A program made the position numbers and the translations under genes. Below are positions 1 through 13,104 of a stretch of 47,405 nucleotides of DNA, one piece after another; the first letter of the stretch is position 1, and each line of letters begins with the position of its first letter. A model generated the notes under the pieces. That model was not told where the DNA came from. It did no database searches and saw only the letters and a list, made by a program, of their open reading frames with translations. Source of the stretch: Campylobacterota bacterium (GTDB taxonomy: Bacteria > Campylobacterota > Campylobacteria > Campylobacterales > Sulfurimonadaceae); contig JBFMGG010000001.1 in NCBI GenBank assembly GCA_040752835.1, forward strand, positions 1-47,405. The letters are read 5' to 3'.

Positions 1-72
1 CTGCGCGATCTGGTCGGGGAAAACGATGCCCGTACGATACAAAATCATTACGCCCAAACCGCGTCTAAGTAA
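1..72 (+). CDS. 3' end of an unidentified protein
   Basis: An open frame enters from the left edge and ends at TAA 70-72, giving 23 residues that finish in NHYAQTASK. It is on the same strand as the signalling operon and lies 71 bases before the PAS gene, so it could be the previous gene of the same transcript. The fragment is too short to assign a family. That it is coding is inferred only from the open frame and the position. Confidence 0.4.
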   Translation: MRDLVGENDARTIQNHYAQTASK

Positions 73-143: not shown

Positions 144-557
144 ATGGAAAAACCTGTTCCCATCGACGAAGAATATGTTTTCGAAGGGCGTGCGATCGTC
201 AGCGAAACCGATCTCAAGGGGATCATCACCTACGCAAACCGCAAGTTCTGCGAAATTTCGGGATACAGCGTCGACGAACTCGTCGGTGAGCCGCACAACA
301 TCATCCGGCATCCCGATATGCCCAAAGCGGCGTTCGCCCAGATGTGGAAAACAATCCAGTCGGGGACGATGTGGCACGGCCTGGTCAAAAATCTCCGTAA
401 AGACGGACGCTATTACTGGGTCGATACCGAAGTGACCCCCACCTACGACGATAACGGAAAAGTAAAAGGATACATGGCCGCACGCAAACCCGCTTCACGC
501 CAGAACATCGAAGAAACGGCCGCTCTGTACGAAAAAATGCTGGAACAAGAGCGATAA
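144..557 (+). CDS. Stand-alone Aer-type PAS domain protein (probable FAD redox sensor)
   Basis: A 137-residue protein that is almost entirely one PAS domain (about residues 10-115), followed by a short helix. The block PHNIIRHPDMPKAAFAQMW and the later W-x-G-x-VKN-x-RK-x-G-x-x-YWV pattern match the PAS domain of the aerotaxis receptor Aer, where these residues surround a non-covalent FAD. In that family the domain reads electron-transport or redox state. Unlike Aer, there is no HAMP or methyl-accepting domain and no membrane segment, so it must signal by protein contact, as CetB/CetC-type proteins do in Campylobacter. GGGGG lies 7-11 bases before the ATG. It is followed after 9 bases by the HPt protein and then by a hybrid kinase and a response regulator, so its partner is likely in this operon. 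FAD binding is inferred from family similarity. Confidence 0.85.
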   Translation: MEKPVPIDEEYVFEGRAIVSETDLKGIITYANRKFCEISGYSVDELVGEPHNIIRHPDMPKAAFAQMWKTIQSGTMWHGLVKNLRKDGRYYWVDTEVTPTYDDNGKVKGYMAARKPASRQNIEETAALYEKMLEQER

Positions 558-566
558 GGGGACCCT

Positions 567-2393
567 GTGTTATTTTACAACCATAAACAAGAATTCATCG
601 GGCTGGACGAAGACGCCCTGAAACTGCTTAACTACACCTCGCTCGAAGAACTTCTGACGGTGTGTTCGGATGTCGCGGACCTTTTCGCCAAAGAACCCGG
701 ATACATCCACAACTTCAAAAATTTCGGCTGGATCGATTTTCTTCTGCATGCCGATTCCGAATCCAATTCGGCGATCGTCCACGCCAACGGCCGAACCTTT
801 TCATGCACCCTCCATGTCCACAAACTCTATTTGTGCGAAGCTCCTTCGGAAACGGGCTACATGGTCGAAATGCTTCACGTCCAGTCGATGAGTGCGGAGG
901 AGTTCAAGCCCCATACGCTCTCCCCGCGTCCCATTATTGTCTCCAAACCCATTGCGGCCGAAAGCACCCCGGAGCCGTTCGTCGAAACCCCGGCCGTTTC
1001 GGAAGAACAAGCGTTCCGCAGCGAACCTGCCCCGTCGATCCTTCCCGATTACGGGCACATTACCCCTACGCCGCTGAGCGAACCCGGAGTCCTTGACGTC
1101 CCCTCCTATGAAGAGAGCGAATACGAACCTTTCGGCGAGTCCTACAGCGATGCGTACGACAAAATCACCCTTCCCGAATTCGAAAGCTACGCCGCCGAAA
1201 CGGCTGTCGAACCGGCCGAACCCGCCAGCCCGCAACCTGCGCCGCATCCTGCCGCCGAAGGACGTTTCACGGCAACGGAACAAAAATACATCGATGCCCT
1301 CAAAGTGGACCGTTCCTACCGCTTCGACCCCAACGTCGCCGCAAGCGAGCTGGGACTCCCGGTCGATCTGATCCAGGAATTCATCGGCGATTTCATCCAG
1401 CAGTCCCATGATTTCAAAAACGACCTGTTCGATGCCGCGCTGCGCGCCGACATGAACAATCTCAAAATCCTTTCTCACAAACTCAAAGGGGTGGCGGCGA
1501 ATCTGCGGATCGAAGACGCTTTCGAATGCCTCAGCGTGATCAATACCTCCGACGATATTGCCGAAATCGAAGCGAACCTCAAATATTTCTATGCGATCAT
1601 CGACAAACTCGAAGGAAAATCCTCTTCCCAAAACGGCGACGGAGCCGCTTTTCAAACCGCCCCCGAGCCCGAGACGGCATCGTATTCCGAAACGCCCTAC
1701 GACTACGGTATCGACGCGTCATCGTATCCGGACGATTTCGATACCTCTTACGCCGACGAGAGCGCCGACGTCCCAAGCGTTTACGCCGATGAGCGAACCG
1801 ATACCGAAAATGGCTATCCCCATGATTTCTCCGAACCCGTCGAGTCGTTTGCGGACGAAGAGGACATCTACGCTTTCGACATCAAAGAGAGCGTGCTCGA
1901 TGAGCCTTCGGTTCCGTCCAAAACAACAGCGATACCCGAGTACGGCTTCGGGCTCAAACACGATGAAGATTCGCCGCTCATTATCCAGGAAGAAGAGCTC
2001 TTCGAAACGGAACCCTTCTCCGACATCCCCGACGAAGAGCCTTTCACCGAATCGGCCGAGCCTATTCAGCCGGTCGACGCCGCACCGATACGGTCGCTGC
2101 ACTACGATAAATCGGCCGTCGCCGGACAGCTGGGGATCGAACGCGCCTTCCTGGACGAACTGATCGACGATTACAAACGCGACGCCCTTGTCTCCGGCGA
2201 GCGGATCGCCGCGGCGATCGCCGCTTTCGACACCCACCTTTGGCAGAGTGCAGCAAGGGAACTCAAAGGGATCAGCGACAACCTAAGACTCGCCGAAATT
2301 TCCGAAGAACTGGCCGTACTGTCGGTAACCAACGATGCCCAGGAAGCCAACAAAGCTTCCAAACGTCTGAACGGTTATCTCGAACAACTATAA
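567..2393 (+). CDS. PAS-like and double HPt phosphotransfer protein, second HPt degenerate
   Basis: 608 residues with a GTG start preceded by AAGGGGAC. Residues 1-110 look like a divergent PAS fold. Residues 110-235 and 350-505 are acidic, Pro/Ser/Glu-rich and probably disordered linkers. Two four-helix HPt-like modules follow. The first (about 255-345) has the phospho-accepting signature LSHKLKG with His304 (codon 1476-1478). The second (about 520-608) aligns as AARELKG, with Arg564 (codon 2256-2258) where His should be, so it cannot accept phosphate on that residue. HPt domains carry phosphate between the receiver of a hybrid kinase and a final response regulator; the next two genes supply exactly those partners. 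The broken second copy may be a binding or inhibitory module. No membrane segment is seen. Confidence 0.75.
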   Translation: MLFYNHKQEFIGLDEDALKLLNYTSLEELLTVCSDVADLFAKEPGYIHNFKNFGWIDFLLHADSESNSAIVHANGRTFSCTLHVHKLYLCEAPSETGYMVEMLHVQSMSAEEFKPHTLSPRPIIVSKPIAAESTPEPFVETPAVSEEQAFRSEPAPSILPDYGHITPTPLSEPGVLDVPSYEESEYEPFGESYSDAYDKITLPEFESYAAETAVEPAEPASPQPAPHPAAEGRFTATEQKYIDALKVDRSYRFDPNVAASELGLPVDLIQEFIGDFIQQSHDFKNDLFDAALRADMNNLKILSHKLKGVAANLRIEDAFECLSVINTSDDIAEIEANLKYFYAIIDKLEGKSSSQNGDGAAFQTAPEPETASYSETPYDYGIDASSYPDDFDTSYADESADVPSVYADERTDTENGYPHDFSEPVESFADEEDIYAFDIKESVLDEPSVPSKTTAIPEYGFGLKHDEDSPLIIQEEELFETEPFSDIPDEEPFTESAEPIQPVDAAPIRSLHYDKSAVAGQLGIERAFLDELIDDYKRDALVSGERIAAAIAAFDTHLWQSAARELKGISDNLRLAEISEELAVLSVTNDAQEANKASKRLNGYLEQL

Positions 2394-2421
2394 ATTTGAT
2401 CAACGAATACAGAGGAATTCC

Positions 2422-5400
2422 ATGCAAATAGGACTTAGAAACCGACTCCGTCTCATCAGTCTCCTCCCGATTCTGATTCTTTTCGCCCTGGCAAGCTACT
2501 ATGTCGGAAACGCTTATATAAGCTATCAATCGGCCCAACAGCTACAGGTGCGGTTGGAAGGAAACAAACAGCTCACCGATTTGATCAACAACCTCTCCCG
2601 CGAGCGGGGGATGACGGTGATGTACATGGGGAACCATTCTCCCACCACCCTCAAATCGCTCCATGCCCAGCGCACGATCGTTGATCACAAAATCGCCGAC
2701 TATCAAAAATACCTCTCGACCGTCATGCTCAACAATGCCGCCGAGCAGGAAAAAGCGTCCCAGCTGGATGCGCTGGTCACGAAACTCCACGCCCAGATCA
2801 AACAGTCCCGGCCGCTCGTCGATGTCGGCAACGCCAGTTTCGAGCGTATTTTTTCCGAGGTATACGGCAAATCGCAGGAGAGCCTGATCAACGAGCTCAC
2901 GGAGCTCGCCGGGCTTCATTTCGACGATGAGATCAACGCCCTCTCCTCGACGTACCTCTCGCTCGTCCGCGCCAACGAATACAGCAGCATCGAACGCGAC
3001 TACATCACCTACCTCCTCTCACGCGCCACACCGCTGAGCGAAGAGGAACTCGACCGATGGATCACGCTGCTCAGCAAAGCCGATTCCCTCACCGTCGAGG
3101 GGATGAAGGACAAAACGATCCAGGTGCAGCTGCAGGCCACCTTGTTCAGCGAAGACAACACCGAGCTGTTCCAGGACATCACGACGGAACGCTCAGCCAT
3201 CCTCCAGGCAAGTGCAACGGGGACGTTCGACACCCAGTCGGGGATCTGGTTTGCAATGATTTCCGAAAAAATCAGTGCCATCGACGACGCCCAGAAAGTG
3301 TTGATCGACGCGATGGACAAACGCTCCGGCACCGTTCAGAACCAGGCGGTGCAGCTCCTTGTCGTCGCCGTCGGGGTATGGCTGCTGGCCGTCTTGGTCG
3401 GAGTGCTTGGGGTCCTCCTCTCGAGCGAAATCACCAAAAACATCAAAAACCTCGAATCGGTACTCAAACGGGTCGCCGCAGACACCAACGACACCGAAGC
3501 CGAAACCCTCAGCCAGTCGATCAACCTCGACACCGCCGCAGGGACGGCGCAGGCATATGCCCTGCTCGAACGGATCATCGAGCAGACGCTTCACGACAAA
3601 CAGTACGCACTCGAAGCGTCCGAAGCCAAATCGATGTTCCTGGCCAACATGTCGCACGAAATCCGGACGCCGCTCAACGGCATCGTCGGATTCACCGAAC
3701 TGCTCAAGGATACGGAGCTTCACGACGAACAGCGCGAATTCATCGACATCATCGAAAAAAGTTCAGAAAATCTCCTCGAGATCATCAACAACATCCTCGA
3801 CCTCTCGAAAATCGAGAGCAACAAACTCGAGATCGAAGAGATCGTCTTTAACCCGATTGACGAATTCGAAAGCGCCGTGGAGGTCTACGCCGTCCGCGCC
3901 TCCGAAAAACACATCGACCTCGCCTGCTACGTCGATCCGAGTCTCGAACGCCCGCTCAAAGGGGATCCGACCAAGATCAAAGAGGTCATCATCAACCTCC
4001 TCTCCAATGCGGTCAAATTTACCAACAGCGGCGGCGCCATCAGCGTCGACATCCGCCGCGTCGAGTGCGACGCTCTGAACCGTGCGCGCGTCCGCTTCCA
4101 GGTCAAAGACAACGGGATCGGCGTGACGAGCGAACAAAAATCGCGTATTTTCGAAGCGTTCTCGCAAGCCGACACTTCGATTACCCGCAAATACGGGGGT
4201 ACGGGTCTTGGGCTGACGATTTCCAGCCGCTTCGTCGAATTGATGGGTTCCCGACTTGAACTCGAAAGCGAACCGGGCAACGGAACTTCGTTCTTCTTTA
4301 CCCTCGAATTCGAGGAGATCGAAACCCTCAACGAACCGCTCAAAGGGGCTTTCTCAAGCATCAATGCGGTGATTCTCGAAAGCACCTCGAAGAAAAAACT
4401 CCAAAATACCTATCTCAAAGAGTACCTCGACTACTTTGGGGTAAGCTACACCACGTTCCATGAAGTGGACGAGCTCAAAATGCTCGAACGGCAGGTCAAT
4501 TACGACCTGCTCATCGTCGACAACGATTACGTGAACGAAGAGGATCTGATCACCTATTCTTCGTCACAGGAACAACTTGTCCTGGTGACCAAATCGTATT
4601 ACATGAAAAAAATCGATTCGATGGGGATTGATATTTTCAAAGTGCTTTACGAACCGCTCAACAGTACCAAGATCCGTGCAACCCTCGAGTCGTATGACAT
4701 TGAAGCGTTCAGCAGCCGGAAGCAAAAAGCGACCCGCCGTAAAAAATTTGACGAAAAAAGCTCCCGTTTCGCCGCAACGGCGCTGGTTGCGGAGGACAAC
4801 GTCATCAACCAAAAACTGATCCGCCGTACCCTCGAAGACCTGGGGTTGGAGATCACCATCGCAAACAACGGGCTCGAAGCGTTCGAAAAACGGAAAAACG
4901 GCGATTTCGACGTCATCTTTATGGATATCCAGATGCCGGTTCTCGACGGTATCGAAGCGACGCAGGAGATTCTCGACTTCGAAGAAGACTACGGCCAGCA
5001 CCACATACCGATCATCGCCCTCACCGCCAACGCCCTCAAAGGGGACCGCGAGCGTTTCCTGGCAGCGGGAATGGACGAATACACGACCAAACCGCTGGTT
5101 CGGAGCGAAATTATCTCCTTGCTCAACAACTTTCTCTCGCACAAAATCGTCGACATCAAATCGGTTCCGAAATCGGCCACCGAAGTCGCTACGATCCCCC
5201 AGGAAGAAGCGTTTTCTCCCCAAGAAGAGGATGAGATCGCCGACGTCGCAATGATGGCTGCGTCTTCCGAGGCAGTCGCAGAAGAATCGGCTTCCTCCGG
5301 TGCAATCGAAGAGTCTATGGCTTCGGAAGCCCAGACGGTTGACGTGGAAATACCCGTTGGGACCGAACCCGACCTCGCCGAGCCCAGACGTTCGGCCTAC

Positions 5401-5748
5401 GATGCCGATATCGTCATTGCCAAGCAAAACGCTCTGGAAATGAAACTCTTCACCCGTATTCTCGACGATCTGGGCTACACCTACAAAACGGTCGGGAGCA
5501 TCGACGAGCTTAAAGCCGAGATCGCCAACCGCCGTTACAAACTCGCACTGTTTGATAAAACGCTTTCGGGACTCGACCTCAAGGATCTGTATGATATAAT
5601 CCGTTCCGGCGACAGTGACATATCGCTTGTGATGTTGATCGATCCGAATGCATCGGAAGAAGCGGACGACGCCATGTACGTCCACGAGATCATCCGCAAC
5701 ATCATCAACAAAGACCTGCTGCGTCTGGTGTTTGAAAAATTTATTTAA
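2422..5748 (+). CDS. Hybrid sensor histidine kinase with NIT-like periplasmic domain and three receiver-like domains
   Basis: 1108 residues. TM1 is about residues 10-30. A helical periplasmic domain (about 35-305) containing LSRERGMTVMYMG resembles the NIT nitrate/nitrite-sensing family. TM2 is about 310-335. The HisKA motif NMSHEIRTPLNG places the phospho-His at 412, and an HATPase domain with DNGIGV and GGTGLGL follows. A first receiver-like domain (about 650-755) keeps Asp700 but has lost the acidic pair. A full receiver (about 790-910) has EDN, Asp835 in MDIQMP and the KP lysine. A third receiver-like domain (about 995-1108) keeps Asp1045 but again lacks the acidic pair. It sits between an HPt protein and a CheY-like regulator, which makes a His-Asp-His-Asp relay likely. 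The ligand is unknown; nitrate is only the family precedent. Confidence 0.88.
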   Translation: MQIGLRNRLRLISLLPILILFALASYYVGNAYISYQSAQQLQVRLEGNKQLTDLINNLSRERGMTVMYMGNHSPTTLKSLHAQRTIVDHKIADYQKYLSTVMLNNAAEQEKASQLDALVTKLHAQIKQSRPLVDVGNASFERIFSEVYGKSQESLINELTELAGLHFDDEINALSSTYLSLVRANEYSSIERDYITYLLSRATPLSEEELDRWITLLSKADSLTVEGMKDKTIQVQLQATLFSEDNTELFQDITTERSAILQASATGTFDTQSGIWFAMISEKISAIDDAQKVLIDAMDKRSGTVQNQAVQLLVVAVGVWLLAVLVGVLGVLLSSEITKNIKNLESVLKRVAADTNDTEAETLSQSINLDTAAGTAQAYALLERIIEQTLHDKQYALEASEAKSMFLANMSHEIRTPLNGIVGFTELLKDTELHDEQREFIDIIEKSSENLLEIINNILDLSKIESNKLEIEEIVFNPIDEFESAVEVYAVRASEKHIDLACYVDPSLERPLKGDPTKIKEVIINLLSNAVKFTNSGGAISVDIRRVECDALNRARVRFQVKDNGIGVTSEQKSRIFEAFSQADTSITRKYGGTGLGLTISSRFVELMGSRLELESEPGNGTSFFFTLEFEEIETLNEPLKGAFSSINAVILESTSKKKLQNTYLKEYLDYFGVSYTTFHEVDELKMLERQVNYDLLIVDNDYVNEEDLITYSSSQEQLVLVTKSYYMKKIDSMGIDIFKVLYEPLNSTKIRATLESYDIEAFSSRKQKATRRKKFDEKSSRFAATALVAEDNVINQKLIRRTLEDLGLEITIANNGLEAFEKRKNGDFDVIFMDIQMPVLDGIEATQEILDFEEDYGQHHIPIIALTANALKGDRERFLAAGMDEYTTKPLVRSEIISLLNNFLSHKIVDIKSVPKSATEVATIPQEEAFSPQEEDEIADVAMMAASSEAVAEESASSGAIEESMASEAQTVDVEIPVGTEPDLAEPRRSAYDADIVIAKQNALEMKLFTRILDDLGYTYKTVGSIDELKAEIANRRYKLALFDKTLSGLDLKDLYDIIRSGDSDISLVMLIDPNASEEADDAMYVHEIIRNIINKDLLRLVFEKFI

Positions 5749-5766
5749 CAAACGGGGAAATTCGAA

Positions 5767-6144
5767 ATGGGTGATAAAAAACTGAAAGTGCTTGCGGTTG
5801 ACGACGACATGATCAACCTCAAGCTGCTCAAAACCATGCTGCTCAAAACCCCGAACGTTTCGCAGGTCGTCGAAGCCAAAAACGGTGCGGATGCCATCGG
5901 TATCCTCAAATCGCAGTTCGACATCGACATTATCCTTCTTGACATCATCATGCCCGTCATGGGGGGCATCGAAATGCTTAAAGTGATCCGTGCCGACGAG
6001 TCGCTCCGTCAGCTTCCCGTCATCGTCCTCACGACCGACGAAACCAAAAAGGGGGAAGCCCTCGAATGCGGTGCGAACGGTTTTCTGATGAAACCGGTAC
6101 GGGAAAAAGACGTCGTCGCCAAAATCTCCCAGCTCGCCCTCTAA
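5767..6144 (+). CDS. Single-domain CheY-like response regulator
   Basis: 125 residues forming only a receiver domain. The acidic cluster VDDD is at residues 12-15, the phospho-Asp lies in LLDIIMP, the switch Thr is in LTTDE, and the conserved lysine is in MKPV. There is no output domain, so it acts by binding a partner such as a motor switch, an enzyme or another kinase. It starts 18 bases after the hybrid kinase gene and is the natural end point of the phosphorelay encoded upstream. GGGGAAATTCGAA precedes the ATG. The motor, the pilus or gene regulation through another protein could each be the target; the sequence does not say which. Confidence 0.9.
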   Translation: MGDKKLKVLAVDDDMINLKLLKTMLLKTPNVSQVVEAKNGADAIGILKSQFDIDIILLDIIMPVMGGIEMLKVIRADESLRQLPVIVLTTDETKKGEALECGANGFLMKPVREKDVVAKISQLAL

Positions 6145-6185: not shown

Positions 6186-6629
6186 CTAGAGTTTTTGCCA
6201 GGAGCGTTTGTGAACGCGGACATCTTCCGAGGACAAATTCCGGTCATCCACCCGCACGTCGATCAGCACCATGGTCTCTTTGCCCGTATTTCGCGCTAAC
6301 GTGTCGCAGGCGGCCGGAGCAGCCCCTCGGAAAGAATACGCCAGCGAGGCGGTAACGTCAAACATCGGATTGCCTGCGGCATTATTGACGATAATGTTCA
6401 GGCGGTTCAGGCAGGTTCCGCCCGCCGTGTCGACCCCCTGCGCGCGCATCAGGGCGTATTCGGTAGCGCTTTGCGCCAGCAGTTCGGCCTGGGTGTGAAG
6501 ATAGGCGTTCGATACGGTCTTGCTCCCCAGCGATGCATTCTGCATCATCAATGCTCCGCCCGCGGCTATGATGACGACGATGAATATCGCCATGATCATC
6601 GCGAATCCTTTGCGTTTAGTAACGTACAT
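6186..6629 (-). CDS. Prepilin-like minor pilin, MshP/PilX/GspK type (no Glu5)
   Basis: 147 residues from the ATG at 6629, preceded by AAAGGA; a longer open frame upstream lacks a comparable site. The N-terminus KRKG-FAMIMAIFIVVII is a class III prepilin signal: basic residues, Gly at -1, Phe at +1, then a hydrophobic helix. Position +5, normally Glu, is Met, as in the GspK/PilX subgroup that sits at the pilus tip. Two Cys in the C-terminal half may form a disulfide. The start overlaps the end of the preceding prepilin gene by 14 bases. By order it corresponds to MshP of the MSHA pilus. The function is inferred from the signal and the context; the globular part has no recognised family. Confidence 0.7.
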   Translation of the reverse strand: MYVTKRKGFAMIMAIFIVVIIAAGGALMMQNASLGSKTVSNAYLHTQAELLAQSATEYALMRAQGVDTAGGTCLNRLNIIVNNAAGNPMFDVTASLAYSFRGAAPAACDTLARNTGKETMVLIDVRVDDRNLSSEDVRVHKRSWQKL

Positions 6630-7554
6630 GCACCATCCTTTCGCGGCAAATCTGATCCTGCGGCAACGTCGAATCGTTGAGATTGGCATCGATCCCGTTC
6701 ATGCAGATTTTGAGAGTATACACATTCCCGACGCTGGAATTGACCGTCGTATTGCTCGCATCGTACATAATCGTGAAATGGGCGACGTTATCTCCCAGTA
6801 TCCGCGGGGTAGCGGCGACGCTGTATACTTCTCCGTTCCAGGGCTGGAACCCCGTATACATGCTAAAGACCCCGTTTCTGGCACGGAACGCGTAGGCCGT
6901 GCGTAGCACGTAGGCTCGACTCGACTGCCCGCTGATGCTCAACACCTCATCGAGGGTCAGGTCGGTCGGGCCCACAACGGCCGTAACCGTCCGGTACGCC
7001 TGATTTGTCCCCGCCCCGGTAATCCAGCCGAAGCGGCCGCAATCGCTCCCCTCGGCCAAACCGTCGCTGCGGAAAATGGCCGTGGGGTTGGCGGGGTCTA
7101 ACAAGGAATCGCTGTTGTGCATCGCCGTATAATTCGAATCGGGTCCCGAGAGGTTCGTCCCCACATTGATCACCTCGCTGCTCCATCCGGGACGGAAACG
7201 CGTTCCGTCCCAGTATCCGCGCAACCCTTCATCGTCCACCCCGACAAACGCGATCGTGTAATCGTTCCCGTCGTCGCCGGAAATCGGTACACCGTTGCAC
7301 ACGCTTCCCAGTGCCGCATCGTTCTGGTCGAGACGAACGATCGATCCGGAGATGCCGTTTTCGAAATAACGGGCCACCTGTTCGAGGATCTGGTCGGCTT
7401 GTGCGGAGCGCTTCGTATACTCTCCGGTCCGGTAGATACCGTCGTAATACTGTCGCAGCGCTTCAAGCGCCAGCGTTCCGACAATTCCGAGGATGACAAT
7501 GACGAACAGCAGCTCGATCATCGTAAAGGCTCTGCGTTGGACTAACGATTTCAT
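6616..7554 (-). CDS. Prepilin-like minor pilin, MshO/PilW type
   Basis: 312 residues. The N-terminus MKSLVQRRA-FTMIELLFVIVILGIVG is a prepilin signal with Glu at +5 of the mature protein. The residue before the cleavage point is Ala rather than the usual Gly, a variant shared with the next gene upstream. The long C-terminal domain with several Cys fits the large minor pilins (GspJ/PilW/MshO). It overlaps both neighbours (4 bases with the MshD-like gene), so the three are translationally coupled. It probably helps prime pilus or pseudopilus assembly in the inner membrane after processing by a prepilin peptidase, which is not encoded in this window. Confidence 0.75.
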   Translation of the reverse strand: MKSLVQRRAFTMIELLFVIVILGIVGTLALEALRQYYDGIYRTGEYTKRSAQADQILEQVARYFENGISGSIVRLDQNDAALGSVCNGVPISGDDGNDYTIAFVGVDDEGLRGYWDGTRFRPGWSSEVINVGTNLSGPDSNYTAMHNSDSLLDPANPTAIFRSDGLAEGSDCGRFGWITGAGTNQAYRTVTAVVGPTDLTLDEVLSISGQSSRAYVLRTAYAFRARNGVFSMYTGFQPWNGEVYSVAATPRILGDNVAHFTIMYDASNTTVNSSVGNVYTLKICMNGIDANLNDSTLPQDQICRERMVHVRY

Positions 7555-8222
7555 TCGGCAAATTTACCTACGTTGGATTTGAAAAACGTCAGGGTCATGT
7601 CGACGTCAGGGTTGGCGGCATTCTGAACCCGGGCGACCACCCGTTTAAGGTGGGTCTGCGTTCCCGAGGCCGCAGGGCTCATCGAGGTCGACGAGCCGAG
7701 CCGCCAAGTCGCCGTCGCGGCCCCTGCGGCATCGATCGCCGACATCGTCGCATCGACGTAGCTGACCGCATAAGCGACCGGAACGGTATACACTGCCGCT
7801 CCCCCCGTTTGCTGGATCTGCAGGTTGTACGCCCTGGCGTGCAACTGCTCGATCCCCTGGCTCAGGTTCAGATTCCCCGCTGCGGGATTGGCCGCCATCG
7901 CCGCTCCCCCCGTCGCGCACGCCATGCTCGAATCGGGATTGGCGCGGAAAACGGCACTGCCGCCGAATGGATCGGGACGATTGCACGGCAGATCGCCCCC
8001 GACCTGCAACGGCCGGAAATCGGGAGGAAGGGAATTTTGATCCCAGCGGGCTTGGGAGACTTTGACGATCTCGCCGCTTAAACGTTTGAGAATATCCTCA
8101 TCGACCATCAATCCCATCGACGCATTATTCGCCACCGCCATCATGGAAGGGATGGAGAGGACACTGATGGCGATTACGACGATCGCGAAGATGAGTTCGA
8201 TCATGGCTACCGCGCGACGCAT
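7551..8222 (-). CDS. Prepilin-like minor pilin, MshD/PilV type
   Basis: 223 residues. The leader is very short (MRRA), followed by VAMIELIFAIVVIAISVLS, a mature prepilin helix with Glu at +5 and Ala at -1. The remainder is a small Ala-rich globular domain with two Cys. It starts 12 bases after the stop of the giant MshQ-like gene and overlaps the following prepilin gene by four bases. By position and size it matches MshD or PilV in the MSHA order mshD-mshO-mshP. The Ala at -1 is unusual; if processing fails the protein would stay as a membrane-anchored form. Confidence 0.72.
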   Translation of the reverse strand: MRRAVAMIELIFAIVVIAISVLSIPSMMAVANNASMGLMVDEDILKRLSGEIVKVSQARWDQNSLPPDFRPLQVGGDLPCNRPDPFGGSAVFRANPDSSMACATGGAAMAANPAAGNLNLSQGIEQLHARAYNLQIQQTGGAAVYTVPVAYAVSYVDATMSAIDAAGAATATWRLGSSTSMSPAASGTQTHLKRVVARVQNAANPDVDMTLTFFKSNVGKFAE

Positions 8223-8234
8223 GGAACTCCTTTG

Positions 8235-11200
8235 TCAGCGGGTGGAAGGGGTGTAGTCGTACGTTACCCCTCCCCCCGTCGTCTGTTTGTTGGTTTTATC
8301 TCCCCGCAACGCCGCATCGGATGCGCTTCCCGATCGGCCGACCGCGGGAACGACGTTGATGTTGAAACACGGGTGGGTCGCGCAATCGAGATTGGTCGCC
8401 GATGGATCGGCATAATCGAGCGCATTCACCCCGTACCACAGCCACGGTGCCGTATCGATATGGGCCTTGCGGCTGTAGGGGATATTGGCCGCACCGACGG
8501 CGGGGAAAGCGTAGGTTTCGATCCCGTTGACCGCCGCCTGGCCGATATTCGATCCCGACGAACCCGCGGCACTCTGCAAACGGGTAATGTTACCGTCGCC
8601 GTAGTTGGTGTCGGCATGCAGAAGGTTGACGTACCAAAGGGGAGTGTTCCGGCTTGCGGCCAGAGGCGTCCCCGCCAAAATCGGTGCATTATACACTTCG
8701 TACCATGCGGAGGCGCTGAAGGCCACATCCCCGAAAACCCTCACGTCTCGCGGGATCAGGCGCCCGTAGGCATGGGTGACGTTGAAATCCATCGATCGCG
8801 CACCGTCCGCTTCGTGCATGGGGCTCAGGTCGGCCTGCATCAAACACTCCGCCACACTCGAGCACCGGATGTTCAACGCGGTGAAATCGGCTACTTTCGG
8901 ATCGGTGGGCCGCGTGACGTTGCGTTCGTAATTGAGACGGGTAATCGTCGAGAGCGAGCCGCGGGTGTCTTTCGTAAAGTTACCGTCATCGATCCTCAAC
9001 AACCGCATGTCCAGCGCCGCGGTATTGACATCGGTCGCATTCGAATCGTAGATCAGCGCCCCCGTAGCGTTGAAATCCTGGAAACGGACCTGGTAAGCGT
9101 TCCCCGCAACCGTCAGGTTGTTGTTGGACCGCAGGGAGAGGTTCAGATCGTTTGCGTAACACCCCGTGACGAAGTTCGTATTGACAACGTTGTTGTACCC
9201 CATCGCCTTGATTTTTCCGGTTGCCCGGACTGACATGTCCATCGAATCGGACCGGCTCATATCGGCAGTGTAAATGAAATTGTTCGCGGCAACGTTGTTC
9301 GGACGGGTCCCGATCCCGAACGAAACGTTCAGATCGAACTTGTACGGCAGGAACGTCAGCTGGTAATCACGGTATTTCAGCCCGTTTTCGACATTGTCGT
9401 GGGTGCTGTTGATCTGACAGCCGACAAGGTTGTTCAGCGTCCCGCCGCTGAGGCTCACCGTAGTCGCCTGGGCCGGTACGTAAGTAGTGTCCGGCGCGCA
9501 TTCGACGGCGCTCAGGAAATGGGGACCCGTCTGGTGGGTCTGCTTCTCGCTGTCCCAGTCGACCGCCGTCCAGGTCTTGTCGATGATATTGAGGCGGTAC
9601 TCCCCGATCTGGGAGAGGTTCCCCTCGGCCGAAACGGTCCCGTCAAGGAGATTAAAACTCTGGGGTTTGTGCGCCGTATCGTTGCACCCGACTTTGGGGG
9701 TGGCGGGATCCCATACAAGGGTGATGTTGTAATCGCTTCCCCCGGTTCCGAAATAGCGGGTATACCCGGGCGAGGCGGCATTATCCAGATGGTTGGTGGC
9801 ATTGATATCGTAGCGGTAGTCGTATCCGCTCGCCACCTTGATCCGTCCGGTGAGCGGAGTTGTCATACCGGTGTATCCGGGCGCGAAGAGCTGCGTCACC
9901 GCACGGTTGGTCTGGTTCATGTCTTTGAGCGCCACCGTGTAGCTTTCGGGGCGGATCGCGAAATTGTCCCGCGAACAGAGCACTTCCGTCCGTGCCCCAT
10001 AGAGGCACTCCATACAGATCGCAACGTCCTTGTAGGTGCTGCTGTTCCCGTTATTAAAGCAGGCGACCGAGGTTTGATCGGTCATCTGGTCATTGGGCAT
10101 TTTGACGAACTGGCGGCAGTGAGGATAGATTTTGTGGATATCCGAAAAGTTGTCGATCCGTATCCCGTTGTTCGTCGGAACGATCGTGATGAGCGAACCG
10201 TCGGCGTCGTTGAGAGTATTGTAGGTGACCCGAAACGCCGCATTCGGCGTCGCTTTTTTGTAAAACTCCTCCGCCTGCGTAATGGGGGAAGGTTCCCCGG
10301 TAATGGTATCGGAGACCATCCCTTTTGCGATCGCCGCCTGGATCGTTCCGGCATTGAAATTGATCTGCGAGACGTTGTTTTCAAACGCCACCCAAACGCG
10401 GGGGCTGATAGAGCTGGAGGGTTCGCGGCATGCCGCGTCGACGTCGTGAAACTGGCTGGCGTCGATCAGCTCGACCGCCACGATGGTGCTGACCGGCTGC
10501 GGCGTGTCGAGGGCTTCGGGGTTGAACGACGCTACCCGCAGGTTGCCCGGACGTTTCGTCACCTGGGTGGTAAGATCGTAATAGCGGGTGGCGGTGGAAG
10601 AATCGTACAACCCCGCATCTACGACACTGAAAATCCCCCATTCGGGAGTGTAGCTGAAATTGTCCGCGGTACACATCGGGAGACGTTCCCCCCCGATGGT
10701 CGAGGAGTACGGAAGACTGAGCGTCGTACCATCCGGCAGCGGAATCGCCAGGTCGTAAGTAAACGTCCCGACGATCGGTATCCGTATGTCGCCGATATTT
10801 TTGGGGGTCAGCAGGTAATAGGCGTACGCGTGCTGCTCTCCCCCCATGTTCCCCAGCGGGATGTTTTTGATGTAGGTATCGCTGACACTCAGCGGCCATG
10901 CCCCGTCGTTTTTGTAGGTGGGCGAATATTCACCCGGATAGGTCACCGCTACGGAATTGCGCTTGTAGATCGCCTGCGTATCGTCGATCTCGGTAATGCT
11001 CAGCTGCACGTTGTTGGCCATCACGTCGGAGGCTTCCTGGTTACGAATGTAGAGACTGACGTTGATGTCTTCGGTATTGGGGAGATAGCCGCTCACGTAA
11101 GGCATCGCCGTCCCGTTGTTCTCTTCGGTGAACGGAAGGCCGTTTTGCTCATACCCGTAGTCGTAACAAAACTGCGGAACGTACAGCTCAGTCGCAAACG

Positions 11201-12908
11201 CAATCATCGACGGCCAGTATTTGTCCTGAGTCGAGGTAAACGTAAAGCGCATGGTCGCCTGTTTGGGTTTGAGATAATTGCCGATGTCAAACGTCTGGAT
11301 ATCGATACCGTTGTTGTTGACCAGTTCGGGAACCCGGTCGTCCCCGCCGGTAATACTGGAGTTAAACGTATTATTGGCCGTCGTTGCGAGGGTAACCGTT
11401 CCCCCCGTATTGTAATCGGTTGTCCGCAGTACGTCGCCGCTGATGTGTTTGTCCCCTTCGGCGGCGAAGACCGAAACCTCGGCGGTGATATCGTTTTTGT
11501 CCGGGGTGTAGAAACCGGTTACGTCGATATTGACGTTCGGCACGTCCTGGCTGACCACCTTCCACCCGTCGAAGATGCTGAAACTCCGGAATTTCTCGTT
11601 TTGGTCCGCCAGATTCGAATAAACCACCACCAGCGTCCATGCCCCGTACGATCCGAGCGAATCGATTTTTCCCTCATATACCGGGATATTGGCGACGGTA
11701 TAGTTCCCCTCGTTCCATTTTCCCGCACCGAAATGTTCGGTCACGTCCGCAAAAGCCGAATAGCTGGTAAACCCGCCGTACCCTTCATTCACCCCGTAAT
11801 CCAGACGGTCGGGTGTGATGTCGACGTAAGTGTTGGCCCCCTCTTCCTGCCGGAGCTTGATCGTCATGTTGGTACTGAACGCGGCATTGGCGACGATCGC
11901 CTGCCAGTACAACCCGGCCCAGATTACTTCGGCGCCTGCGGGAAGTTTGAGTTCGGATGTGGTCGAATTGCTCAATCCGCCCGTTGTCGTATCGGCATGA
12001 TACCCGCACAGGTAATAGTAATTGTTCGCATCGGTCGCATCGGTGATGTACGAGCCGTTGGTATAGGTCGAGCAGATCGAGGAGTTCTGCGTCGTGGGGG
12101 GAACGAGGACCGTGTTCCCGATGGTTTTCATGTCCCCTTTCGTATAGAGCTGTTTGCGCAGCGTAAAATCGCGGTATCCGGCGGTGATGACATCGGTGAC
12201 CGTCACCGTCACGGTCGCCGTATCCTCATATCCGTTGGTATCGCGGATGGTATAGGTAAACGTATCGCTCCCCATGTATTCGGCCGTTGGGGTATAGGTG
12301 AAGCTGCCGTTCGAGGCAACCGTCACGCTTCCGTGAGCCGGAGAGGTATTGGAAATGACACTGAGCGAAGGGCCCACGTCGTTGGAGAGGAGATTACCGC
12401 TGTGGGTGGTATTTTTGACCATCGTGAACGTATCGTTTGCGGCATCGGCAGTGATAAAGGTGATGACGATATTGTCGATCCAGGCGTCTTCGCTGCTGTA
12501 GCTCGAATCGGTATGGATCCGGAGGTTCAGATCGCCCCCCGTATCGAGCACCGCGTTGACGGTATAGTGGTAGACGCCGTCGGTTTGGGTAAACGTCGTC
12601 GTCGCGCCGTTGGCGATCACCCGCAACGCGTCGGTGGTCTCCCAGCCGTTCGCGATCGATACGTCGAAGCTGATGATGACGTTTTTGAGGGCGTAGTCGT
12701 TTCCGTTGAAATTGTACAGCTTGGAGGCGGAAGTACCGTTTTCGATCTTGTACATATTACTCGTACGGGTTCCGCCGGCCCATCCCTCGACGTTGTTGTT
12801 GAAATTGTCGCTTTCCAATACGATCGCGGCCTGAAGCACCGTCCATCCGCCCATCAACATTAGCACAACCAATCGGATCATCGAACGGATCGTGTCGTTT
12901 ACTTTCAT
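8235..12908 (-). CDS. Giant secreted MshQ-like multidomain surface protein
   Basis: 1557 residues from the ATG at 12908, which starts a signal peptide (MKVNDTIRSMIRLVVLM, cleavage near LQA-AIV); an open extension upstream is not needed. After it come a jelly-roll-like domain (about 30-150), a cadherin/VCBS-like repeat (about 155-240, with GSFTYTPTAEYMGSDTFTYTI), a large beta domain (about 245-640, with AGAEVIWAGLYWQ), and a C-terminal half rich in Asn, Thr and Cys pairs with CSRDNFAIRPESY, reminiscent of MshQ/DUF6701 proteins of MSHA loci. It is the first gene of a run whose next three genes are prepilin-like, so it probably acts as a pilus tip or surface adhesin, or as a partner in pilus export. 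Its GC and codon use resemble its neighbours. The MshQ assignment rests on context plus this motif. Confidence 0.7.
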   Translation of the reverse strand: MKVNDTIRSMIRLVVLMLMGGWTVLQAAIVLESDNFNNNVEGWAGGTRTSNMYKIENGTSASKLYNFNGNDYALKNVIISFDVSIANGWETTDALRVIANGATTTFTQTDGVYHYTVNAVLDTGGDLNLRIHTDSSYSSEDAWIDNIVITFITADAANDTFTMVKNTTHSGNLLSNDVGPSLSVISNTSPAHGSVTVASNGSFTYTPTAEYMGSDTFTYTIRDTNGYEDTATVTVTVTDVITAGYRDFTLRKQLYTKGDMKTIGNTVLVPPTTQNSSICSTYTNGSYITDATDANNYYYLCGYHADTTTGGLSNSTTSELKLPAGAEVIWAGLYWQAIVANAAFSTNMTIKLRQEEGANTYVDITPDRLDYGVNEGYGGFTSYSAFADVTEHFGAGKWNEGNYTVANIPVYEGKIDSLGSYGAWTLVVVYSNLADQNEKFRSFSIFDGWKVVSQDVPNVNIDVTGFYTPDKNDITAEVSVFAAEGDKHISGDVLRTTDYNTGGTVTLATTANNTFNSSITGGDDRVPELVNNNGIDIQTFDIGNYLKPKQATMRFTFTSTQDKYWPSMIAFATELYVPQFCYDYGYEQNGLPFTEENNGTAMPYVSGYLPNTEDINVSLYIRNQEASDVMANNVQLSITEIDDTQAIYKRNSVAVTYPGEYSPTYKNDGAWPLSVSDTYIKNIPLGNMGGEQHAYAYYLLTPKNIGDIRIPIVGTFTYDLAIPLPDGTTLSLPYSSTIGGERLPMCTADNFSYTPEWGIFSVVDAGLYDSSTATRYYDLTTQVTKRPGNLRVASFNPEALDTPQPVSTIVAVELIDASQFHDVDAACREPSSSISPRVWVAFENNVSQINFNAGTIQAAIAKGMVSDTITGEPSPITQAEEFYKKATPNAAFRVTYNTLNDADGSLITIVPTNNGIRIDNFSDIHKIYPHCRQFVKMPNDQMTDQTSVACFNNGNSSTYKDVAICMECLYGARTEVLCSRDNFAIRPESYTVALKDMNQTNRAVTQLFAPGYTGMTTPLTGRIKVASGYDYRYDINATNHLDNAASPGYTRYFGTGGSDYNITLVWDPATPKVGCNDTAHKPQSFNLLDGTVSAEGNLSQIGEYRLNIIDKTWTAVDWDSEKQTHQTGPHFLSAVECAPDTTYVPAQATTVSLSGGTLNNLVGCQINSTHDNVENGLKYRDYQLTFLPYKFDLNVSFGIGTRPNNVAANNFIYTADMSRSDSMDMSVRATGKIKAMGYNNVVNTNFVTGCYANDLNLSLRSNNNLTVAGNAYQVRFQDFNATGALIYDSNATDVNTAALDMRLLRIDDGNFTKDTRGSLSTITRLNYERNVTRPTDPKVADFTALNIRCSSVAECLMQADLSPMHEADGARSMDFNVTHAYGRLIPRDVRVFGDVAFSASAWYEVYNAPILAGTPLAASRNTPLWYVNLLHADTNYGDGNITRLQSAAGSSGSNIGQAAVNGIETYAFPAVGAANIPYSRKAHIDTAPWLWYGVNALDYADPSATNLDCATHPCFNINVVPAVGRSGSASDAALRGDKTNKQTTGGGVTYDYTPSTR

Positions 12909-13104
12909 CGTCTTGTTCCCAGCTCTTTTTCTGCAATCCGGTATTATCGGTCTATTTCCGTTCTCTCTAAAGGGAGAAAACACGCTATTTTCGATTCTAG
13001 TCACTACTAGATTAAATATCGATTAATATCTGTTAATATTTATTTGCTTTATGTTACCGAATCGGTTGATCGGGTTTTTATTTGTAGCGATTACTTTTTA
13101 GTGT

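Follow-up and report, generated by a model that had tools for sequence, protein, structure and literature searches.

Detached PAS proteins of the Aer type are already known from the energy taxis system of Campylobacter jejuni, where CetB and CetC are the precedents and where, as is proposed for the cassette described here, a separate small PAS protein feeds a membrane partner within the CetA/CetB(/CetC) system (PMC2628428, PMC3558505). Unlike in CetA/CetB, the proposed partner of the cassette PAS is a hybrid kinase/HPt relay and not a chemoreceptor, and the cassette has no MCP gene. The flavin-contact residues of the cassette PAS are shared with the PAS domains of E. coli Aer and of MmoS, a FAD-PAS sensor kinase that belongs to a two-component system (PMC9668731), however, in both of these proteins the PAS is fused to the output and not detached. 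Caulobacter MopJ is likewise a single-domain PAS protein, and it acts on a His-Asp phosphorelay via its kinase, although it is described as a member of the PAS_5 family that is involved in cell-cycle control (PMC4432633).

The other parts of the cassette also have described counterparts. The NIT domain shares the conserved ERG and ER pocket residues with NasR and other NIT sensors (PMC7496416), but NasR is a soluble antiterminator, whereas in the cassette the NIT domain forms the periplasmic portion of a hybrid kinase. Relays of the BarA, TorS and RcsC type with a separate HPt (RcsD, ChpT, Ypd1) follow the same His-Asp-His-Asp order, while in the cassette the HPt sits on a PAS-HPt-pseudoHPt adaptor. 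Pseudo-HPts that keep the fold and lack the histidine are known from plants (the AHP6 class; PMC7402358, PMC5975490). In contrast to the AHP6 class, the cassette pseudo-HPt shares a chain with a functional HPt; one bacterial clade has it as the sole HPt domain left.

In the Sulfuricurvum window (the whole stretch of 47,405 nucleotides that was analysed), a four-gene cassette encoding the PAS protein, the HPt protein, the kinase and a lone receiver (REC) is found immediately downstream of uvrC (Table 1). The open reading frames and their coordinates agree with the original prediction of four genes on one strand, separated by 9, 28 and 18 bases.

Table 1. Features of the cassette and its upstream neighbour, with window coordinates.
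Feature	Position	Strand	Basis or key residues
uvrC 3' end (excinuclease subunit C)	1..72	+	gene cut by contig edge
Stand-alone Aer-type PAS protein, 137 aa; accessory input, probable FAD redox sensor	144..557	+	ORF; Pfam PAS_3 2.5e-19
HPt protein, 608 aa	567..2393	+	ORF
N-terminal PAS-fold domain of HPt protein, aa 1-108	567..890	+	AlphaFold model pLDDT 90
HPt1, aa 235-349, predicted catalytic	1269..1613	+	phospho-acceptor H304 in SHKLKGVAANL
HPt2, aa 515-607, pseudo-HPt	2109..2387	+	R564 replaces His; LKGISDNL motif kept
Hybrid kinase, 1108 aa: TM, periplasmic NIT (aa 53-298), TM, HisKA (H412), HATPase, weak REC-like (~aa 650-770), REC2 (D835), degenerate REC3 (~aa 995-1108)	2422..5748	+	ORF; Pfam
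Stand-alone receiver, 125 aa; proposed relay output	5767..6144	+	ORF; Pfam Response_reg 1.2e-23; D12, D13, D59, T89, K109

A search for the same gene order in Campylobacterota found uvrC–PAS–HPt–kinase–REC again across Sulfurimonadaceae, and HPt–kinase–REC, mostly with uvrC, is present in eight other families of the phylum, which are all those where the cassette was found. Within the genus and the family the gene set, its order and its spacing are conserved to an extent that chance would not produce. The co-occurrence of the PAS gene with the other three, by which the original prediction could be judged, was observed in 76 of 80 named loci. The locus PAS proteins cluster together, and each is its genome's best match to the query PAS. 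The protein cluster of uvrC recurs upstream of the cassette in the relatives and is its neighbour in all families but one; in that family, f16, uvrC was not in the fetched neighbourhood and the genes are still together in the order PAS-HPt-sel1-kinase-REC. No description of the locus came up in a literature search that covered NIT kinases, the HPt and uvrC, each in Campylobacterota or Sulfurimonas. The cassette is apparently both old in the phylum and undescribed, whereas its detached Aer-type PAS by itself has precedents in CetB and CetC.

The stand-alone PAS protein has its best PDB matches in MmoS (3ewk, 2.7e-37) and Aer (8dik, 1.1e-35), and Pfam assigns it a PAS, which bears out the view that it is an Aer-type PAS without an output domain. 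The window PAS has all seven flavin-contact residues of Aer (H53, R57, H58, D60, W70, N85 and R115), as do 85 of 116 relatives; some Sulfurimonas PAS proteins lack H53, R57 and/or R115. The conservation of these residues is in line with the proposed FAD redox input, and the protein probably binds FAD and senses the redox state.

The HPt protein differs from what was expected. Pfam gives a single weak Hpt match (aa 271-318), and the protein had been taken for a double HPt. The model of HPt1 is a helical bundle (pLDDT >95) that aligns to the BarA HPt (3iqt, Z 11.5), and H304 is present in 115 of 119 relatives. HPt2 keeps the HPt fold as well (HptB 7c1i, Z 13.4 over 97 residues), but it carries R564, and the histidine is restricted to the first domain in 112/119 relatives and occurs in both in 3/119. 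This alignment rules out the double HPt reading. Furthermore, the protein seems to begin with a previously unannotated PAS-fold domain, a moderately supported assignment that comes from the predicted structure: all 50 of the 50 VIA-align matches listed are of the PAS class, and the moderate strength of the match follows from its best Z of 8.5 (PpsR PAS1, 4l9g). The domain has no Pfam match, its profile gave no meaningful match in a PDB sequence search, and Foldseek with the domain model alone returned nothing at E <= 0.001 and only weak PAS matches.

The kinase agrees with the claimed NIT-type hybrid kinase, since Pfam recognizes NIT, HisKA, HATPase and Response_reg domains; its two TM segments were assigned by inspection of the sequence. 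The core is closest to BarA models, and H412 and D835 are each kept in 138 of 138 relatives. The NIT domain (PF08376) scores 93.3 bits against a cut-off of 24.9. A PDB search with the window NIT sequence alone gave no match, and a 12-member NIT profile matches NasR 4akk (2.8e-7). The ERG motif and the helix-5 E-R pair (NasR E175/R176) are invariant in 12 relatives and align with NasR 4akk; for the ERG arginine we assumed the NasR numbering. The retention of these pocket residues supports a putative external NIT-like sensor, as originally suggested. The kinase C-terminus carries what is, judged by profile comparison with REC2 (hhalign probability 98.3%), a degenerate third receiver that was missed previously; the weak REC-like region (REC1) reaches an hhalign probability of only 73% as a receiver. 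Pfam gives Response_reg alone for the last gene product, a lone CheY-like receiver as had been claimed, and its D59 is kept in 127 of 128 relatives.

H412, D835, H304 and D59 together provide the His-Asp-His-Asp series in the window. Because the kinase, the inter-receiver, one HPt and the output receiver keep their phospho-acceptors, the four-step relay is predicted to be intact there, which supports the phosphorelay claim for the window. The claim does not extend to every form of the cassette: in one clade (f20 14/14, f11 8/8, f7 and f22) the HPt protein has no histidine, with H412 and D835 of the kinase and D59 of the receiver all conserved, so the cassette does not everywhere depend on the relay step. 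Two f18 loci (L070, L251) that were considered as His-less have the HTLKGV motif in another HPt. An association between the presence of the PAS and the HPt histidine (both present 37, both absent 24, histidine only 12, PAS only never) was rejected, since the histidine was lost a single time on the tree and an independent-pairs test gave p = 1, so that the pattern is no independent evidence.

The PAS gene is missing in several lineages that retain HPt-kinase-REC, and it was gained or lost about eight times on the tree while these three stay, which argues that the PAS modulates the relay rather than forms its core. The proposal that it substitutes for a fused sensor is thereby weakened, given that it is optional and that a PAS-fold domain is already part of the HPt protein. 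The cassette PAS was not observed as a fusion with the cassette kinase or with the HPt protein. Aer-type PAS-HisKA-REC-HPt fusions are found in the same order (L074, L076).

On balance, these data probably describe an ancestral Campylobacterota phosphorelay that runs from a NIT kinase through an adaptor HPt to a lone receiver and is tuned by an optional PAS. Gene order, residues, folds, co-occurrence and co-divergence are direct observations, and we infer the ligands, flavin binding, phosphotransfer direction, PAS partner and output. The membrane hybrid kinase would use its NIT domain to detect an anion in the periplasm, probably nitrate or nitrite. It would autophosphorylate on H412 and transfer the phosphoryl group to D835 in its own receiver. 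From there it would move to H304, the single active HPt of the soluble PAS-HPt-pseudoHPt adaptor, and then to D59 of the lone receiver, which may act on its target by protein-protein contact. The pseudo-HPt, and likewise the degenerate receiver at the kinase C-terminus, would provide surfaces for docking or gating and would not be catalytic. The free-standing PAS would be an optional redox module that binds a relay member, with the kinase or the adaptor (via PAS-PAS contact) as the likeliest partner, and tunes the relay as CetB does the chemoreceptor CetA. A convergence of the two inputs, redox and external, on one relay is plausible.

The PAS is unlikely to pair instead, like CetB, with a chemoreceptor whose gene lies elsewhere, which would leave it in the operon for shared expression only and the relay with a single external input. 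Stand-alone Aer-type PAS proteins do work with MCPs in Campylobacter (PMC2628428, PMC3558505), six of the seven other such genes in this genome adjoin an MCP gene, and the closest paralogue (55% identical) is, like the cassette PAS, not beside one; the neighbours of the cassette PAS are uvrC and the HPt gene. Against this, linkage of the PAS to HPt-kinase-REC is kept over five families, also where uvrC is not adjacent, and PAS distances corrected for uvrC divergence correlate with those of REC (0.80), the kinase core (0.73) and HPt1 (0.72) but not with nadB (-0.07). This co-divergence, which a few fast-evolving lineages may drive, makes a functional link of the PAS to HPt–kinase–REC likely.

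Direct signalling from the kinase to the lone receiver, with the PAS-HPt protein as a receiver-binding scaffold or phosphatase-like modulator and not an obligatory relay step, would fit the His-less clade and the retention of the pseudo-HPt in most groups; it appears improbable given that the family of the window keeps H304 and the entire motif nearly invariant, as expected of a catalytic residue. A rather doubtful alternative is that the lone receiver serves as a phosphate sink or for feedback, the output then lying elsewhere (e.g., in a DNA-binding regulator or in the flagellar motor). A role as phosphate sinks has been suggested for lone receivers of Campylobacterota clusters (PMC9239204), and outside the genus neither an effector domain nor a conserved output gene follows REC, but REC is the last cassette gene and among its best-conserved proteins (86-99% within the genus).

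More tentatively, the detached flavin PAS and the periplasmic NIT could jointly gate one phylum-old relay via the PAS-HPt-pseudoHPt adaptor, and one clade could have swapped the histidine relay for a histidine-free adaptor with the kinase and the receivers retained, so that a phosphorelay would have been converted in nature into a scaffolded two-component system. The natural series of PAS plus His-HPt, His-HPt only and pseudo-HPt only makes it testable how a phosphorelay loses a relay step while its proteins remain linked. If the preferred relay works as proposed, electron-acceptor sensing by NIT and redox state by FAD-PAS would be joined in one relay, in a cassette that is syntenic across much of Campylobacterota, including nitrate-respiring, sulfur-oxidising vent and groundwater bacteria.

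A promoter scan of the + strand of the 71-base uvrC-PAS gap found no promoter-like site, and terminator-like sites were below chance in a terminator scan. The presence of uvrC immediately upstream had gone unnoticed in the original prediction. The translation of window bases 1-72, which we take to be UvrC from recognition of its sequence, ends in ...ENDARTIQNHYAQTASK*, and an identical ending is found in a 602-aa ORF of a related locus (L046:12425-14233).

The four genes that follow uvrC (see table) are classed here as a variant of the phosphorelay kind, built of known parts, of which CetB, MopJ, MmoS, NasR and the plant pseudo-HPts are each a precedent for one; no description of the locus was found among the open papers searched. 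All four ORFs lie on the + strand where originally predicted, with gaps of 9, 28 and 18 bases, and their Pfam matches are a PAS domain, a weak Hpt, a NIT-HisKA-HATPase-receiver protein and a lone receiver. The upstream gene is cut, because the window begins at the start of its genome's contig C1.

Features of the window and of comparison loci
Feature	Location	Strand	Remark
uvrC 3' end	1-72	+	coding end of protein read as UvrC in relatives
PAS protein	144-557	+	Aer-type
HPt protein	567-2393	+	PAS-fold start, HPt1, HPt2
Kinase	2422-5748	+	NIT-HisKA-HATPase-REC2-REC3
Lone receiver	5767-6144	+	active site complete
Set 3' of receiver	6186-8222	-	convergent with receiver
Set 3' of receiver	8235-13004	-	convergent with receiver
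DciA-like gene	L066:5509-6003		precedes uvrC
Single-chain hybrid	L074:7041-10361		Aer-type PAS, HisKA, HATPase, REC, HPt
Single-chain hybrid	L076:8810-11314		Aer-type PAS, HisKA, HATPase, REC, HPt
Closest PAS paralogue	L078:9242-9658		own genome, C7; orphan, 55% identical

Named relatives of the locus belong to Sulfuricurvum and Sulfurimonas, and 20 sampled congeners share the order nadB (reverse strand), uvrC, PAS, HPt, kinase, REC. Across 92 complete loci the median gaps are 69 bases from uvrC to PAS, then 10, 11 and 14 down to REC; the REC of L046 and the PAS of L048 are masked by reverse-strand ORFs, yet present, and the L064 stretch stops at a contig edge before REC. In eight other Campylobacterota families (f4, f6, f7, f11, f16, f18, f20, f22), uvrC is followed by HPt, kinase and in most cases REC, often with a Sel1-like gene before the kinase. 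In f16, PAS-HPt-sel1-kinase-REC are still linked, and uvrC was not found in the fetched stretch around the cassette. Most families and Sulfurimonas have, ahead of uvrC, a small gene with a DciA-like match (E 0.005, below the cut-off) or an orthologue of it, and none was found there in Sulfuricurvum. Two MAG records titled Arcobacter (L175, L202) have loci resembling those of Sulfurimonadaceae, among which L202 falls in the tree; the record names look wrong.

The kinase residues H412 and D835 (REC2) are invariant in 138 sequences. REC3 is a degenerate receiver (98.3% against REC2 in hhalign) that retains D1045 in 130/138 and holds Lys in the acidic pocket in 129/138. The NIT domain shows homology to NasR (2.8e-7), whose ERG and ER residues it retains; the ER pair is E175/R176 in NasR (PMC7496416). 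The HPt protein was originally read as a double HPt, which proved wrong: HPt1 retains H304 in 115 of 119 relatives, while HPt2 carries R564 in the window and A, I, L, S, T and others in relatives; the His lies in HPt1 only in 112, in HPt2 only in four and in both in three. HPt2 still has the HPt fold, since HPt entries lead its structure matches (HptB, Z 13.4 over 97 residues, a value near 13 not being decisive alone for a helical bundle) and the sequence motif agrees, with LKG and DN kept. Residues 1-108 of the HPt protein form a domain of PAS fold that matches no Pfam family; the original prediction of a detached PAS replacing a fused sensor understated the presence of this domain.

HPt proteins of f20 (14/14), f7, f22 and f11 (8/8 loci that possess an HPt ORF) retain the PAS-like start and lack the conserved His; their HPt domain, where recognisable, is degenerate. 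In some f11 loci a separate HPt ORF is missing altogether. In aligned members the kinase and receiver acceptors remain, and the loss is one event on the tree. PAS together with a His-free HPt was never seen, in a comparison where the independent-pairs test has no power. In part of f11 (L120, L121, L122, L245) a NIT kinase of 1380-1517 aa directly follows uvrC, and no separate HPt ORF was found between them.

Whether the PAS gene belongs to the cassette has evidence on both sides. It is present in 76/80 named loci, the other four (L152, L185, L186, L200) keeping the HPt protein, and its linkage spans several families (f4, f16, parts of f18 and f6), which argues for membership, as do proteins elsewhere in the order that join an Aer-type PAS to HisKA-REC-HPt in one chain (two hybrids are tabulated). 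Also in favour, the PAS proteins of the locus group together in the tree (2 changes vs 17.2 shuffled, a single clade not being proven), and PAS distances corrected for uvrC show correlations of 0.80 with REC, 0.73 with the kinase core, 0.72 with HPt1 and 0.62 with NIT, but -0.07 with nadB. Of the genome's seven further stand-alone PAS genes, six adjoin an MCP gene, whereas the locus PAS does not. Against membership, PAS is absent from many loci and the kinase tree requires 8 changes of its presence; the detached PAS is therefore an optional module. It matches MmoS (3ewk, 2.7e-37) and Aer (8dik, 1.1e-35), and the window's protein has every one of the seven residues through which Aer contacts flavin (PMC9668731, PMC2628428), as do 85/116 relatives. 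Several are lost in one Sulfurimonas group (L162, L170, L172, L173, L195, L198 and others), where H53, R57 and/or R115 are replaced; judged by these residues, its PAS is possibly flavin-free.

The cassette has the residues and gene order of a relay. On the favoured reading, phosphate would pass from H412 of the NIT kinase to D835, then H304, then D59, and the detached flavin PAS would provide a second, optional input via protein contact. The originally proposed convergence of two inputs is therefore plausible, with ligands, phosphotransfer, PAS partner and output inferred.

The closest PAS paralogue adjoins a MutS-domain gene, just as the locus PAS adjoins uvrC; both neighbours are of DNA-repair type, which may be chance. 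The set 3' of the receiver is conserved within the genus only. It comprises three small ORFs, of which one carries a prepilin N-methylation motif, together with a protein of 1589 aa in which bacterial Ig/cadherin-like domains occur.
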